A DNA stretch of 64,000 nucleotides, from NCBI RefSeq assembly GCF_030758975.1, contig NZ_CP132359.1:5047236-5111235 (forward strand), written 5' to 3'. This document shows positions 55,181-61,234 of this stretch, one piece after another. Made by a program: the position numbers and the translations under genes. Source of the stretch: Bosea beijingensis (GTDB lineage: Bacteria; Pseudomonadota; Alphaproteobacteria; Rhizobiales; Beijerinckiaceae). The notes under the pieces are model-generated. The model was not told the DNA's origin and searched no databases. It worked only from the letters and a program-made list of their open reading frames with translations. How positions within the stretch are numbered: position 1 is the first letter of the stretch; every line of letters starts with the position of its first letter.

Positions 55181-55740
55181 TCATTGCCACAGCGGCAGCA
55201 CGTTCGAAGGCGGCTCATCGACCGGTCGTGATGGCAACTCACGCAGGCGGCGCTTGTGGCTCTTCAGCGACAGCGTGTCGTCCGCCGCACCGCTTCGTAG
55301 ATCTGCAACGACGTGATCGATCATGCCGAGCGCTTCCGCCTCGGGGGCGGTGACCCGGCGACATGTAGAAGCGATCTCCAGCGCTGTCGCGGCATCGGTC
55401 AGACGTGGCAAGCGCACCGTCCCACCGGCGCCCGGAATGATGCCGAAGGTGCCCTCAGGCAACCCGATCACGGCGTCGGCGAGCGCGACACGCCCGTCAC
55501 AGGCGAGCGCGATCTCGTAGCCACCGCGCGCGGCCATGAAGCGCGGCGACGATCGGCTTTGGACAGGTCTCAATAGCCGCAATGACCTCGGGAAGTTGCG
55601 GCTCAACCAGCGGAGCCGAGAACTCGCGCAGATCCGCGCCCGCGACAAATTTCTTGCCCGCACCAATCAGAACGCCGGCTGATAGCGCCTCGTCAGCAGA
55701 AACCTCGGCGACAGCAGCCAGCAGACCGACGCTTACGGCT
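55181..55740 (-). pseudogene. Enoyl-CoA hydratase (crotonase) fragment, truncated and frameshifted
   Basis: Remnant of a crotonase, possibly the hydratase half of a FadJ-like enzyme. On the minus strand the first part reads GLLAAVAEVSADEALSAG, then GAGKKFVAGADLREF and PKPIVAALHG. The second part reads RGGYEIALACDGRVALADAVIGLPEG, but in another frame. The shift is at about 55525-55535, where the conserved A-x-GGGYE segment seems to have lost five bases. The N-terminus is missing beyond 55740, where the sequence becomes the opposite-strand IclR fragment. No 3-hydroxyacyl-CoA dehydrogenase part follows. Non-functional. Confidence 0.78.
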
Positions 55741-55926
55741 AGGGATCGCGCGGGGCGGCCGATCGCTGCGCTCAACGTATCGGTGCCGACGGCGCGCTGG
55801 GAAGAGGGCGCTGTCCGGGAGCAGCTCATCCCCGATCTGCTCGACGCCGCTGCCATGATCTCCAAAAGCCATGGGCTCTGGAACAATCATCCCTGGTTCG
55901 CCAAATCGATGGCCGCCAAAGCCTGA
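55741..55926 (+). pseudogene. IclR-family regulator, C-terminal fragment
   Basis: The frame reads RDRAGRPIAALNVSVPTARW then REQLIPDLLDAAAMISKSHG and ends at 55926. This is the typical C-terminal end of the IclR ligand domain (GR-I-ALNVS ... L-P-L--AA--IS). Everything upstream of 55741 is crotonase sequence on the other strand, so about four fifths of the gene is gone. IclR proteins often control aromatic catabolism. Confidence 0.65.
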
Positions 55927-56023: not shown

Positions 56024-56446
56024 CTAACGAAAAACCAGTGCTGTGGTCTTTCCATATTGGATCAGCAGGAGATCGAAGTGTGACGCTAGAAGTGACTGTA
56101 GCCAGCCCTCGAGCATCGTGTCGGTGTGCGCAGGCAGAAGCCAGCCTTTCGAGATCGGATCGAACTCAACGACGTCGTAACCGAGTGCCTTGAACCAGCC
56201 GTTCACAGAGCACAAGAACGGAAAGATGACGAGAGCTCTCCGCAGGGGACCGTGGCTGAACGGGGACTGTCGCCAGCGGGATGGGGAAACCGACAGTCTG
56301 ACGAGTGCTACGGACTGCGTTGGATCGAGGCCCGCCTTGCGCGCGACCTCGCTGAACAAGAATTCGCGGTTGGCCGGCGCAGAGAGCGCGGGGATGTCGA
56401 TCTGCCAGCGCCTGGGATCGAACTGGAGGTAGCGAAGAGAAGCCAT
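56024..56446 (-). CDS. Cassette gene E: unknown protein
   Basis: A 140-residue protein starting MASLRYLQFDPRRW, at ATG 56446 one base after the stop of gene D (TAAGATG); a GTG at 56470 overlapping gene D is the alternative. Mixed alpha/beta look, tryptophan-rich, no membrane segment and no family I recognise. A hydrophobic strand lies near RRALVIFPFLCSV and a second in HFDLLLIQYG. Last gene of the five-gene minus-strand cassette. Confidence 0.65.
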   Translation of the reverse strand: MASLRYLQFDPRRWQIDIPALSAPANREFLFSEVARKAGLDPTQSVALVRLSVSPSRWRQSPFSHGPLRRALVIFPFLCSVNGWFKALGYDVVEFDPISKGWLLPAHTDTMLEGWLQSLLASHFDLLLIQYGKTTALVFR

Positions 56447-56447
56447 C

Positions 56448-57053
56448 TTAATGCCGGATCCGCCAGCCACTGGCGACCTGCGCCCCGTCCGGCCCAGGAC
56501 GAGTGAACGCCAAGCAGCTCTTCTCCATCCGGATCCATCCTGGCATCGAGCAATCAGCGATCGCCTTGATGTCGCCAGTGTCGATGAGAGCTTGAATTGC
56601 CGGTGCAGAACTCGAGGACATGAGCTGAAGCGCCCGGGCCATCGTCTGCTGATCCGGGCTTAGCGCGGGCGGGCGCGGCATCAGCAGAAGTGCCGACAAG
56701 GCGCCTGCAAGGAAGCCGCAGGAGAGTGCACCAAGTAGGAAAGGCCACCAGGCGCGAAACTGCGCCTTCAGACTCTGCTTCTGCTGGATGCCCTCTGACA
56801 GCTCGCGAAGTTTCCCCGCCTCGATGGCGAGTTGGGCTGACACTTCACGGCATTCGACCTGCTGCGCCTCCAGGCGCAGTGACATCGTATGCATCAGCAC
56901 GACCAATGCGAATATGGACTGGTTTGCCGGAATGCCGACTACTCGAGAGATCTTCTCAAGCTGCTTTGCGGGATCTTCCTGGGCAAGAGCGTCAGCGATC
57001 TCGCCGAGGAGATGTCGCGCCTGAATCAACGTGACAGTATTAATCGGAGGCAT
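56448..57053 (-). CDS. Cassette gene D: one-pass membrane protein with coiled coil
   Basis: A 201-residue protein. A helical N-terminal part (10-100) contains a likely coiled coil at about 58-98, followed by one membrane helix at 102-125 (WWPFLLGALSCGFLAGALSALLL). A C-terminal domain with two or three cysteines and ADCSMPGW at about 165 would lie in the periplasm if the N-terminus is cytoplasmic. ATG 57053 overlaps the ATPase stop by one base, so the products may form a complex. The arrangement recalls IncP TraM (helical plus membrane segment, next to the ATPase TraL), but no sequence match can be claimed. Confidence 0.7.
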   Translation of the reverse strand: MPPINTVTLIQARHLLGEIADALAQEDPAKQLEKISRVVGIPANQSIFALVVLMHTMSLRLEAQQVECREVSAQLAIEAGKLRELSEGIQQKQSLKAQFRAWWPFLLGALSCGFLAGALSALLLMPRPPALSPDQQTMARALQLMSSSSAPAIQALIDTGDIKAIADCSMPGWIRMEKSCLAFTRPGPDGAQVASGWRIRH

Positions 57054-57955
57054 CAGATGGGCCTCCTGAACTCGAAGACACGCTCAAGTTGCGTGGCCAT
57101 GTCGTCGAGAAACGTCTCAAGCAGGGTTTTGTCGAAAAAGTCGGTCGACGGGTCGTTGGCGATGCGTCGATAGGTGCGTTTCTGACTTTCCATCAGGTTC
57201 ATGGCAGCGCGAGGGCCGACTGGCATCAGGAGCGTGCGCCCTTGGGCTTCGACACGTTTCCGCACCGGATGTCCCAGATAGTATCCGAAGTCACTCAACT
57301 GCTCTGTCGGGCCCTCTTTGATATTTAGCACGGCGTGAACAGTCGCGTCAGGCATCTGGTCCAGCAGAACGCCGAGTTGGTTCACGGAATCATGAAGCGG
57401 CGACAGCATGTAGAGGATCACCAGCTGATACCCGAACTCCTTGAGCGCGCGACGGAGCGGCGGACCATATTCGTCGAAGGGGCTCGTCAGACCCGCCGGA
57501 AAGTTGACGACGACCGGTGAGATCTGCGTCTCCTTCATGATCGTGACAAGGCCCTGCATGCCGGTGCGAGCCTCGAGCTTAAGACCGATTACACGCAGGT
57601 TCGGCTCGTCTTTGCAGGCCGGCCCGACGTCCCTCGTCTTTTGATCGGCGTCGCAAACCAGAAATCGGATGCCATAGGAAAGCAGCACATCGACGAGGCT
57701 CATCGTCATCGTCGACTTGCCCGGCCCTCCCTTGACGCCGGTTACCATGATCATGAGCCGCTCGGGCGAATGAACCGCCCAACGATTGAAGTGCCCGTCG
57801 CCCTCGGAGATGCTGGGCGGAGCCTGCACTTGCAATGCCATGACACTATCGAATTTTGCAAAGGCGTCAGATGTCACCGCGTCGTCGCCGGAAATCTTCA
57901 CGGTTTCGACCTCGGGCTGTTTGATACCGTTACGTGGATGCTTACGATTATCCAT
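57053..57955 (-). CDS. Cassette gene C: ParA/MinD-like P-loop ATPase
   Basis: A 300-residue deviant-Walker ATPase. The Walker A is VKGGPGKST (74-82) with the signature Lys75, Lys80 and Ser81. The A' strand is FLVCDADQKTRD (Asp102, Asp104). At the Walker B position the strand reads VVVNFPAG, with Asn151 where Asp is usual. A low-complexity N-terminal extension of about 60 residues precedes the ATPase fold. Possible roles: plasmid/chromosome partition, membrane positioning, or a transfer-accessory role like TraL. ATG 57955; 11 bases after gene B, 1-base overlap with gene D. Confidence 0.82.
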   Translation of the reverse strand: MDNRKHPRNGIKQPEVETVKISGDDAVTSDAFAKFDSVMALQVQAPPSISEGDGHFNRWAVHSPERLMIMVTGVKGGPGKSTMTMSLVDVLLSYGIRFLVCDADQKTRDVGPACKDEPNLRVIGLKLEARTGMQGLVTIMKETQISPVVVNFPAGLTSPFDEYGPPLRRALKEFGYQLVILYMLSPLHDSVNQLGVLLDQMPDATVHAVLNIKEGPTEQLSDFGYYLGHPVRKRVEAQGRTLLMPVGPRAAMNLMESQKRTYRRIANDPSTDFFDKTLLETFLDDMATQLERVFEFRRPI

Positions 57956-57966
57956 GTTTTGTTCCT

Positions 57967-58500
57967 CTAGATTGGGAAGAAGGGAGACTCTTCGCCGCCG
58001 CCTGTCTTCTCGAGAGCGTCGAGGCGGTCGAATATTGCGGTGTTCGATTCCAGGCTTTTCGGCGGAGCGCGGGCGGCTGCGCCGTCATTCGGCCCGGGCC
58101 GTGTCAATACGGGCGCTAGGCCCTTGTGTGATTTCAGGAATGCGGAGATGCGGTCATTGACGTAGAGATCGAGCTCTGAACTCAGTAAATCTTCGATCTG
58201 CGCTCCCTCAGCGAGGAGATGAAAGATCGTCGTCCCAATCTCGTCAGCGAATTTCCTGGCTTCAGTTATCGAAAAGCGCCTGCTCAGCGCTCCTTCCGGC
58301 AGAATCGGTGCCAAGATGCTGACCGCGCCGGTCTGGGCGGCTAGCGCCAGACGATCGCCTTCGTCAGTCCGGCGGTGTTGTCCTCCGCTCGCTTTGGTCC
58401 CCTGGCGCGCTCCGAATGCAAGAGGCCCGTCGGAGGCTTCACCTAGTACCAGCGGCTGGTTCCAGGCCTTGAGGAGGTTGAACAGGCTCTTCTTTGTCAT
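57967..58500 (-). CDS. Cassette gene B: unknown protein
   Basis: A 177-residue soluble protein beginning MTKKSLFNLLKAWNQP. A middle helical part, RFSITEARKFADEIGTTIFHLLAEGAQIEDLL, is followed by a polar, proline-rich tail. No recognised domain. ATG 58500 overlaps the stop of gene A by 4 bases (ATGA), so A and B are coupled. Confidence 0.65.
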   Translation of the reverse strand: MTKKSLFNLLKAWNQPLVLGEASDGPLAFGARQGTKASGGQHRRTDEGDRLALAAQTGAVSILAPILPEGALSRRFSITEARKFADEIGTTIFHLLAEGAQIEDLLSSELDLYVNDRISAFLKSHKGLAPVLTRPGPNDGAAARAPPKSLESNTAIFDRLDALEKTGGGEESPFFPI

Positions 58501-59042
58501 TTGCGCCGACCCTGCTGGCGCGCCTGACGACGACGCTTGGAAATGCGCTGTGCCACGACCTTGTTGAGCACCAGCGACAGCGCTTCCGCGCTGGCGAGAC
58601 AGATCTCCGATCTGGCAACATCGCGGCGGGCCGATGCCCGAGAGCGTTCACGTGGCGCCAGATGGTGTTTGCCCATCGTTGTGCAAATGGACGCAATGAC
58701 GGCTTCGGCCGTGCGGTGCCCGATTGGTCCTCTCAGAACGGACAGCTGCGCATCGACGAGCGCCGCGACCAGATCACGCGTGAGGGAGCCGTCGAAGAGC
58801 GGCTCATGATGCGCGTTTGTCTTGATGTAATACCCAGTCTGAAGTGCGTCCTCGCGCATCCCTGCCAGCGTTGGGAGCAACGCGAGCATGTCGACATAGG
58901 AATTGCTCTTGAGCATGAGCTTGCAAATGCCCTGGTGCAGAGCCCTCTGCTCGTTCAGTAGCCTTTCGTGTCGAGTAACCATCGTGAGTTCCAGGCAAAG
59001 AGCTCTCCTTGCGCTTGAGCCTTTATGGCTAAGCTTTCGCAT
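58497..59042 (-). CDS. Cassette gene A: unknown protein with basic C-terminus
   Basis: A 181-residue, mostly helical protein ending in a strongly basic tail (RISKRRRQARQQGRRK), compatible with nucleic-acid binding. Start is ambiguous: ATG 59042, or ATG 58982 beginning MVTRHERLLNEQ; neither has a strong ribosome site. First gene of the cassette; the upstream DNA holds several short repeats. No family recognised; an oriT- or centromere-binding adaptor is one guess. Confidence 0.62.
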   Translation of the reverse strand: MRKLSHKGSSARRALCLELTMVTRHERLLNEQRALHQGICKLMLKSNSYVDMLALLPTLAGMREDALQTGYYIKTNAHHEPLFDGSLTRDLVAALVDAQLSVLRGPIGHRTAEAVIASICTTMGKHHLAPRERSRASARRDVARSEICLASAEALSLVLNKVVAQRISKRRRQARQQGRRK

Positions 59043-59119: not shown

Positions 59120-59142
59120 ATGTGTTCCACATTTTCACATTT
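59120..59142. promoter_or_regulatory. AATGTG/CACATT palindrome plus extra half-site
   Basis: AATGTG-TTC-CACATT (59120-59134), perfect 6-bp arms, followed two bases later by another CACATT (59137-59142). AT-rich setting about 80 bases before gene A suits an operator or an origin element. Confidence 0.5.
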
Positions 59143-59176: not shown

Positions 59177-59630
59177 AGGATTTAAGTCCAAAAAAAATCG
59201 CCAATTCTTTTCGGCTTCGTGGATTGATTTGAGTTCATGTCTCTGGGTCGTGTTTTTGTGATTCGCGTTGCTCGTCGCGCACTCAATTTCTCAACTCGTG
59301 CGCTGTGCCGCGGATATTCGGCGAGCCGATCGATTCCTGTAGACCAACATCAATGCGCTCCGTTCGCGCGGAATGATCCGCGACTTCCGGCTGCAGCTGT
59401 CTAAGGTCCGCGCCGTAAGCGCCATGCCGTCCGACGGCGCGGCGCTGACTAGCCCCACGCTCCCGCAGCACCACGTGTCGGGTCGGCGCTCCCAGGAGCG
59501 CAACCCCTGATTCAGCGCGATCCCGCGGGTCGCGACTGCACCCCTATGCTGGGCCCGGGCAGCGCTCTTCGTTCAGCGCAAGGGCCTCAGAACGCGATAG
59601 CCCCTGCGATCTGGCGATCGTGCGTTGTCA

Positions 59631-59678
59631 TTGCACCCCCGTGGGAGGCCTTGCACCCCCGGCTTAGCGAGGGTGCAA
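59631..59678. repeat. TTGCACCC repeats at exact 20-base pitch
   Basis: TTGCACCCCC at 59631-59640 and 59651-59660, and the inverted form GGGTGCAA at 59671-59678. The three elements begin exactly 20 bases apart; the last two form an 8-bp inverted repeat with a 12-base spacer. A related CTGCACCCC is at 59536-59544. Iteron, operator or transfer-origin element are all possible. Confidence 0.6.
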
Positions 59679-60298
59679 TTAAAAGAGGCTCCACTTCAAC
59701 CGCTCCACGCGCTGGAAATCGAGCGCGCCGGCACCACCGCAGGCCGGAGGAACCGTCAGATAGGGGCGAGAATGCAGCCCCCAGGGCTCATTTCGCAGAA
59801 AGCAAACCCCAGCAAAAATGGCACGATATACAAAATCACTGCAAACTCGGCTTCGCCCTCGTGAGCAGTGATTTCGATTGTCGCGCTGAGCGCTCCGTGT
59901 GCTCTCCGAGAGGACGCCCGACAGACTCTGCCGCGCACTGGACGGCCTCGGTCAGGCTGTCGAACCCGGCCTGTTCGGCCTCGACCCGCGCGCTCCATTT
60001 CCCTGGATCGCGCCGCCCCTTCGGGCGGCTGCGGGTTGTTCGGGAAGCAGGGAAAAACCAGGGTCAAAAGCCCTTGGTTGAGTTCGCCTGCGATGAGGCC
60101 TGTCATCCCTCCGTCCCAGCGAACATGGTCCGACTTGCACAAGATCAGCCCGTGAAGCGGCTTGACGTGGTCTGACAGAAGTATGGGCCGCCCTGGTGCG
60201 TTGGACGACGCCGCCCTATCCTCAGACTTTCCCTATCGTGCCTGAGCCGGTCTGGACCTAGGTGCTTTACCAGAGACGTAGCCAGCGCTGCTTGCGGT

Positions 60299-61060
60299 CT
60301 ATCTTTCAAAATCGCGGGCGCGACCACGATTTCTCAGCGCAAGAATTCCGCGCTGCCGCTCTTCCCGCTTAGTGCGCTTCTTACGTTTCGGCTTCGGCAC
60401 TTCCTCGCTGTTGCCGGAAGAGGGCTCTTGCGCGGGCAGTTCCGGCGGCGCAACCTTCCGTGCGTCCTCGCGCTGCGGCGCGGGCTGCTCTACTGGCGTC
60501 AGTCCCGGGCGCTCGAGTGGGGAGGTCCCGTGCTGGAGCGGCTCGGTGTCGTCGGGCGTAGCCCGGGACGTCCGGCGCTTGGGGATGGCAGAATGGTTCT
60601 TCGGCCTAGCGGCTCGGTCGGCTGGCGTGTCGGCGCAGATGACGGGTGACTTCAGCGCGGCCTCGCGGCTGCGTCGCTCCGCATCGTGGGCCATGATGAG
60701 CTCCTCGGCCTTGGCAGGGTTCTGCTTGACGGCCTGGGTCAGCTTCTCGGCGAGCTCGAGGGGCGTGCGCCCAGGCACGTTGGGGTCGGCGTTGTCGAGG
60801 ATGAACTGACCGTATCGTTTGAAGACGCCGGCCATGAACTTCTGGAAGCCGGTGTGGAAGGTCTGGTCGACGACCTCGTCGTAGCTCGTCCAGATCGGGT
60901 GCTGGTCCGGCTTGGGCGGCTTGATGTCGAGGGGCGGCATTGCGCGCGCCTTGAAGGAGATACCCTCGACGGAGACCGCTCCAGGTGCGGCGGGGAGCGG
61001 CAGAACGGGTTTGGCGCCGCGCGCGGCGGCGCGCCAGCCGATCACGACGCGCCAGCTCAA
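60299..61060 (-). CDS. Unknown protein with lysine/arginine-rich C-terminus
   Basis: Open frame of up to 253 residues from a TTG at 61060; the best ATG is at 60940 (MPPLDIKPPKPDQHP), giving 213 residues. A compact part, TSYDEVVDQTFHTGFQKFMAGVFKRYG with ELAEKLTQAVKQNPAKAEEL, looks like real helical protein. A proline-rich linker and a basic tail (PKRKKRTKREERQR) follow. I do not recognise it. Basic, disordered tails are common in plasmid mobilisation and DNA-binding proteins. The frame sits directly after, and in the same frame as, the truncated aapP, so its original N-terminus may have been lost at that junction. Confidence 0.5.
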   Translation of the reverse strand: MSWRVVIGWRAAARGAKPVLPLPAAPGAVSVEGISFKARAMPPLDIKPPKPDQHPIWTSYDEVVDQTFHTGFQKFMAGVFKRYGQFILDNADPNVPGRTPLELAEKLTQAVKQNPAKAEELIMAHDAERRSREAALKSPVICADTPADRAARPKNHSAIPKRRTSRATPDDTEPLQHGTSPLERPGLTPVEQPAPQREDARKVAPPELPAQEPSSGNSEEVPKPKRKKRTKREERQRGILALRNRGRARDFER

Positions 61061-61069
61061 CCGGGCCTG

Positions 61070-61234
61070 TCATTTGCCCGAGCCGGACGGGCCGCAGATG
61101 ACCAGCTTCTCGCCACGGCCGACCTTGAGGTTGATGTCGCGCAGCACGTGGAACTCGCCGTACCACTTGTTGACGCCGACCATCCCAACCGCGTCCTGAT
61201 TGGTCGGCACGGGCCTGTTCACGCTCACGTTCAT
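61070..61234 (-). pseudogene. aapP: General amino-acid ABC transporter ATPase, cut at Walker A
   Basis: The reading frame begins MNVSVNRPVP at ATG 61234, 33 bases after the AapM stop as expected for aapP, and continues through VNKWYGEFHVLRDINLKV. It stops (TGA, 61070-61072) right after GPSGSGK of the Walker A loop. Only 54 of roughly 250 residues remain; no signature, Walker B or H-loop sequence occurs anywhere in the following 6 kb. The break marks the edge of the foreign segment to the left. Confidence 0.85.

Follow-up and report, generated by a model that had tools for sequence, protein, structure and literature searches.

Which process is served by five tightly coupled genes, mostly without recognizable family, that lie between two damaged genes of Bosea beijingensis? 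The stretch analyzed here (the window) comprises 64,000 nucleotides, positions 5,047,236–5,111,235 of a 5,560,387-base single-contig genome (assembly GCF_030758975.1, contig NZ_CP132359.1). An earlier note on this DNA had described five minus-strand genes around a ParA/MinD-like ATPase and had proposed transfer, partition or defence as their function. The five genes are probably a mobilization-accessory (relaxosome-positioning) operon of the Stb/TraKLM/MobCDE kind, which came from a mobilizable element and is now stranded; the cassette looks like a rare five-gene form of a known three-gene kind. The operon and the elements upstream of it are listed below.

58497–58982 (originally called 58497–59042), minus strand: gene 5, first of the operon, 161-amino-acid (aa) basic protein, proposed DNA-binding component
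57967–58500, minus strand: gene 4, 177-aa soluble protein, conserved, without family match
57053–57955, minus strand: gene 3, ParA/MinD-type ATPase with deviant Walker A motif KGGPGKST, StbB/TraL/MobD-like
56448–57053, minus strand: gene 2, 201-aa protein with one hydrophobic segment and a C-terminal domain common to relaxase-linked proteins
56024–56446 (alternative start 56470), minus strand: gene 1, 140-aa alpha/beta protein
59123–59138, minus strand: motif D, 16-base GTGAAAATGTGGAACA, about 140 bases before gene 5
59537–59678, minus strand: motif C array of four half-sites, putative binding site (stbDR/parS-like)
59913–60040, minus strand: R1, conserved structured noncoding element by alignment and covariation, candidate origin of transfer (oriT) or small RNA
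60302–61036, minus strand: C-terminal remnant of a relaxase of the MobA/MobL family, lacking the catalytic part, from alignment to the relaxases of loci L058 and L057

The operon and its conservation

Gene calls and the sequence confirmed that the five coupled open genes on the minus strand are real, with the junctions given by the earlier note: in gene order, a 4-base overlap, an 11-base gap, a 1-base overlap and a 1-base gap, the last with the 56446 start of gene 1. Alignment with relatives indicated that gene 5 probably starts at 58982 and not at 59042. The G+C content at third codon positions of the five genes was 0.67–0.72, whereas 47 other genes of the window averaged 0.784 (standard deviation (sd) 0.033, lowest value 0.703). 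None of the five proteins matched a Pfam, NCBIfam, PADLOC or PHROGs family above the curated cut-off, where such a cut-off exists; the gene 3 ATPase gave sub-threshold matches to ParA/MinD-type profiles.

The set was found in identical order and strand in 4 of 67 genomes of the same genus, the window's own included. The search of gene neighbourhoods that the earlier note had proposed thus returned the five genes together and in conserved order in three further genomes: G024 (locus L022), G031 (L023) and G014 (L024), with gene calls in fetched loci made by a simple gene caller. Cassette proteins shared 23–41% identity with their relatives over the alignments. A search with gene 5 gave matches in 6 of the 67 genomes; the match in G059 was weak and in a long frame, leaving five genomes. 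The fifth, G010 (L038), keeps genes 5 and 4 of a cassette interrupted by an IS21-like insertion, with two genes read by eye as IS21 transposition genes following directly (9554–11916 of L038); apart from one chance-level row, genes 1–3 had no match in the 20 kb around this cassette. Among 397 genomes of the order, with 9 candidates per genome scored, gene 5 matched only the window's own. Profile searches of a set of 5.8 billion proteins recovered 8 clusters for gene 5, with 7997 candidates scored, and 10 for gene 1; among the longest contigs listed, several are the same for gene 5 and gene 1 clusters (5,220,396; 4,865,277; 53,899; and 6,784 bases), as expected if both genes travel together. 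No earlier report of the five-gene module was found in the open-licence literature, searched with few terms.

The ATPase and its partners

The Walker A motif of gene 3 conforms to KGGxxK[S/T], residues K75, G76, G77, K80 and S81 being invariant in the 9 aligned sequences. When plasmid sequences were searched by tblastn, the ATPase matched 230 records, typed as mobilizable (174), conjugative (42) or non-mobilizable (14); all matches were below 60% identity and none extended over 80% of the query. A Xanthomonas "mobD" product was 33% identical over 178 residues. Four plasmid relatives were examined: in three, the ATPase gene lies between two small genes with an annotated relaxase on the opposite strand, and in the fourth, from Methylocystis and typed as non-mobilizable, the opposite strand encodes MobC and an LPD7-domain protein, and no small gene is listed before the ATPase. 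This lends weight to the likeness to TraL–TraM of IncP plasmids that the earlier note had seen in the order of the ATPase and membrane protein genes.

A search of 150 related genomes located the ATPase at 13 places, spread over 12 genomes of which one is the window's own; ten stretches from nine genomes were examined, and G100 and G128, weak and outside the family, were kept as short loci. Nine places in 8 genomes lie outside the cassettes, and in all seven of those examined (L025–L031) a relaxase-like gene was found near the ATPase gene and the gene following it; the L025 relaxase matches PF03432 and that of L029 no Pfam family. In a tree of 22 ATPase sequences, from which host row L008 had been dropped beforehand and in which L026 and L030 were not included, the four cassettes formed one clade (support 96/99) and grouped with 10 of 12 relaxase-linked ATPases, apart from 5 of 6 host ParA/MinD-like proteins, by a weak split (75/80). 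The cassette ATPase thus appears, with weak deep support, to group with relaxase-linked ATPases of the StbB/TraL/MobD-like type. Its match to the VirC1 profile was weak (expect value (E) 0.17), and 1 of the 9 aligned members reached 8e-4.

Gene 2 overlaps the ATPase gene by 1 base and, like the small, often membrane-protein gene directly after the ATPase in accessory operons, encodes a protein with a single hydrophobic segment, whose peak window begins at residue 106. At E ≤ 1e-4 its C-terminus matched the L024 protein and relaxase-linked proteins of L027, L029, L030 and L031, so that this domain occurs in 4 of the 7 relaxase-linked loci. Weak matches to DUF6753 were seen in 4 of 8 aligned members of the gene 2 family (best E 0.014), and on a Nostoc plasmid a gene for a DUF6753 protein comes after the ATPase gene. 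The gene 5 product has an isoelectric point of 10.7 and a tail rich in Arg and Lys; its predicted structure is mostly helical (predicted local distance difference test score 79, predicted template-modelling score 0.49) and gave no fold match in structure comparison. The gene 1 model weakly resembled the structure of a SMARCAL1-like phage protein.

Conserved elements upstream of the operon

Reading toward the operon, the relaxase fragment is followed by R1, the motif C array, motif D and gene 5. Three half-sites of the array read TTGCACCC (59671–59678, 59651–59658 and 59631–59638), and the fourth is a shorter GGGGTGCA (59537–59544). Counted from the first (+) TTGCACCC, they are spaced 0, +20, +40 and about +135, the later half-sites being inverted. 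This spacing is kept in four of five cassettes (window, L022, L023 and L038); GGGGTGCA alone is present at the fourth half-site in the window and, in L023, at both the third and the fourth. The window would be expected to contain the paired pattern 0.00 times, and TTGCACCC was not found in the stretches examined of seven R1 loci without cassette (L056–L059 and L089–L091). The half-site has TTGCA in common with the stbDR unit TTGCATCAT of plasmid R388, as given in excerpts of PMC3098194, which may be chance.

Motif D was found exactly in 6 of the 67 genomes: in three cassettes and at three sites (L085–L087) beside MobC-like and relaxase-like genes, where the relaxase-related proteins of L086 and L087 scored below and at the PF03432 cut-off. 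ATPase-like genes at L085–L087 were identified by eye; in the tree, two of these cluster with host proteins. Allowing one mismatch added the G014 cassette, a second G031 site and one G046 site; in the G010 cassette the motif differs at two positions, and the reversed motif, used as control, had 0 matches in the 67 genomes. In two cassettes an inverted copy of motif D lies 81–85 bases away (L023, 5570–5688; L022, 11816–11930), the 17-nucleotide copies being 100% and 82% complementary.

R1 could be aligned among ten loci. Changes on both sides with pairing kept were observed in 8 of 25 predicted pairs, versus 2.5 (sd 1.1) in shuffled alignments, a count reached by 0 of 500 shuffles; slid structures gave 1–2, and further pair types were unexceptional (13 versus 11.4, reached by 55 of 500). 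These figures refer to a structure derived from the same sequences as those tested and to shuffles that do not preserve relatedness. Searched with an R1 model, the 67 genomes yielded 16 hits, spread over 13 of them; ten were the model's own sequences and six were independent. The stronger independent hits were in G065 and G060 (E 5e-13 and 6e-12), and the weaker in G014 (2.5e-7), G023 (1.1e-5), G060 again (2.0e-4) and G002 (4.1e-4); the last, among apparent chromosomal partition genes, may be false. Relaxase matches with E < 1e-40 occurred at 9 places in 8 genomes, and at seven of these R1 was hit within about 2 kb (once by the weak G060 hit); both places in G041 had none. R1 had no Rfam match near threshold, and none was found in mobilization loci of other types (L025–L029, L031 and L085–L087) or in plasmid loci L093–L096 and L136 (28 sources). 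R1 was seen in the Bosea islands L056–L059, L089, L091, L122 and L123; in the last two, Rha-like genes stand beside it (Phage_pRha E 0.0037 in L122, by eye in L123).

The relaxase remnant and the edges of the cassette

The gene scar upstream of the operon corresponds to the C-terminal ca. 245 residues of a MobA/MobL-family relaxase. It is 40–43% identical to residues 595–841 and 583–790 of the L058 and L057 relaxases, respectively. The PF03389 (MobA/MobL) domain of the L058 protein occupies residues 185–392; the fragment aligns only beyond it, and thus the catalytic part is absent here. A relaxase remnant directly upstream supports the idea that a mobile element was the source of a transfer-accessory module. 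The other damaged genes at the edges agree with the setting described earlier, between a scar and a truncated host gene:

61070–61234, minus strand: truncated 5' end (first 54 codons) of an ABC-transporter ATPase gene, junction near 61036–61074
55181–55886, minus strand: enoyl-CoA hydratase remnant in two frames, ECH_1 match in both, at the opposite edge of the cassette

The ABC-transporter ATPase gene, presumably aapP-like and of the amino-acid type, is cut at its junction with the relaxase fragment: the window matches L060 (88%) only from 61074 rightwards, and in L060 the gene continues to the contig end. The genes neighbouring the cassettes, read by eye, differ from genome to genome. On the G014 contig with a cassette, genes resembling a bacterial ubiquitin-type (JAB/ThiF) operon were noted by eye (L042, 1556–3821). 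A block with an exonuclease-like gene, 44–53% identical to that of L057, recurs in L057, L058, L086–L088, L090, L091 and L042, that is, in islands of both relaxase types and, by eye, also in the island of the G014 cassette.

Comparison with known systems

The operons concerned are traKLM in RP4 and mobCDE in pTF-FC2. The closest studied system found is stbABC of the IncW plasmid R388, which shares with the cassette a ParA-type ATPase gene in a small operon, upstream repeats and a link to mobilization genes. According to excerpts of PMC3098194, StbA binds direct repeats around the operon promoter, the ParA-type ATPase StbB is required for transfer when StbA is present, StbC is without effect, and Stb has roles in both segregation and transfer. 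The cassette differs in having five genes instead of three, a Walker motif of the TraL/MobD type rather than that of R388, and a lost relaxase. The same excerpts describe TraL of RP4 and MobD of pTF-FC2 as StbB-like proteins with a KGGxxK[T/S] motif; like the cassette, traKLM and mobCDE combine such an ATPase with neighbouring relaxase genes. Unlike them, the cassette has no detectable TraK/MobC-type first protein, contains extra genes, and has a co-directional relaxase remnant where theirs is divergent and intact. VirC1 of Agrobacterium, proposed to bring the relaxosome to the pole (excerpts of PMC3098194), is likewise a ParA-type ATPase, from which the cassette protein differs by its weak profile match. 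Bosea islands with MobA/MobL relaxases (L057, L058, L089 and L091) share R1 with the window, and the window scar matches the C-termini of the L057 and L058 relaxases; they differ in having no cassette-protein match and no TTGCACCC in the stretches examined. The refuting test set by the earlier note gave an intermediate outcome: the five genes co-occur, and the core of ATPase and membrane protein is of a known operon type, but with another front end and extra genes.

Weighing the explanations

Several observations weigh against a mobilization-accessory operon. PF03389, PF03432 and PF03135 (VirB4) had no match in the window genome (G000), which makes present transfer function doubtful, and the relaxase is represented by a co-directional C-terminal fragment only, rather than by the intact gene that faces such operons at oriT. 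No relaxase-like match was found within the 8.7–20 kb examined around the four other cassettes, nor did the MobA/MobL loci L057, L058 and L088–L091 match the cassette ATPases or two relaxase-linked ATPases; cassette and relaxase therefore meet only in this window. R1 was found without a relaxase in L059 (20 kb) and in L122 and L123 (3.1 kb each), and relaxases without R1 in L088, which weakens the reading of R1 as oriT. In the L024 cassette the motif C array was not found, and its weak R1 hit is on the opposite strand, 4 kb past the operon. In hhalign comparisons neither gene 5 nor gene 4 resembled the small proteins encoded first in relaxase-linked operons (probability 0.1 with shallow profiles, for gene 5 against 8 such proteins). 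For gene 2, the C-terminus matched L028 only at E 0.13, L025 and L026 were not among the matches listed, the L022 protein as called is shorter and lacks the C-terminal domain, and the profile comparison with five relaxase-linked proteins (four from plasmids and that of L025) was modest (53%, 45 columns).

The absence of a nearby relaxase match from four of five cassettes, together with five genes still recognizable in four genomes, would also suit a relaxase-independent function of a chromosomal island, such as regulation or stress, with a recruited transfer-type ATPase and the relaxase fragment as a chance neighbour. Motif D and R1 are, against this, shared with relaxase loci, third-position G+C content is low and the chromosomal neighbours, by eye, differ in each genome; we regard such a function as improbable, and as less probable than partition, itself unlikely. 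As a partition system of an excisable or once-plasmid element, the cassette would use the array as centromere, gene 5 or 4 as ParB-like protein, gene 3 as ParA and gene 2 as membrane anchor. This part of the earlier proposal survives as a parts list common to both functions (ParA-type ATPase, conserved upstream cis array, basic protein), and the two roles of R388 Stb (PMC3098194, excerpts) favor it. Partition proper fares less well: none of the five proteins, genes 5 and 4 included, had a ParB match in Pfam or NCBIfam, genes 2 and 3 point to relaxase-linked operons, and no replication gene was noticed beside the cassettes when gene calls were read by eye, no profile search having been made. 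Anti-phage defence, also raised earlier, found no support and is very improbable. Genes without known family accompanied by an ATPase and a membrane protein, and the ubiquitin-type look-alike on the G014 contig, would fit a defence operon; PADLOC gave two matches only, both to the ATPase (E 0.03–0.05), and the relatives of this ATPase sit beside relaxases.

Proposed mechanism and implications

For the mobilization-accessory operon, a DNA-binding protein, most likely the basic gene 5 product, would bind the array of four half-sites that precedes the operon. The ParA-type ATPase would move or hold the resulting complex, and the gene 2 protein would tie it to the inner membrane near a transfer channel, with genes 4 and 1 assisting. 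By analogy with the systems above, array, basic protein, ATPase and membrane protein would together place the element's DNA at the membrane for relaxase and channel. The nick at oriT, which may lie at or close to R1, would be made by a relaxase of the MobA/MobL family; alternatively, R1 might be a transfer RNA, for which SGI1 sgm-sRNA offers a precedent in excerpts of PMC9299015. With its relaxase reduced to a C-terminus, the module would be unable to initiate transfer, and any action would require a relaxase supplied in trans.

A further-reaching and rather doubtful proposal is that R1, the array and the five genes form a compact relaxase-less hitchhiker using a foreign, R1-recognizing MobA/MobL relaxase in trans. 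In that case R1 would be a structured origin of transfer, or a transfer RNA, of a new kind, and the products of genes 5, 4 and 1 would be new relaxosome-positioning proteins. We take the MobA/MobL family to belong to the MOBQ class. Some MOBQ-class relaxases prefer acting in cis (PMC6856555, in excerpt), which counts against easy use of a relaxase in trans.

The route of relaxosomes to the transfer channel is called unknown in the excerpts of PMC3098194, and ATPases of the StbB/TraL/VirC1 type are candidates for bringing them there. The cassette family would offer a compact unit for this question, with a well-defined cis array and a membrane partner, and would allow site, binder, motor and anchor to be studied one by one. 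R1, in turn, is a candidate transfer origin or RNA for Bosea islands.

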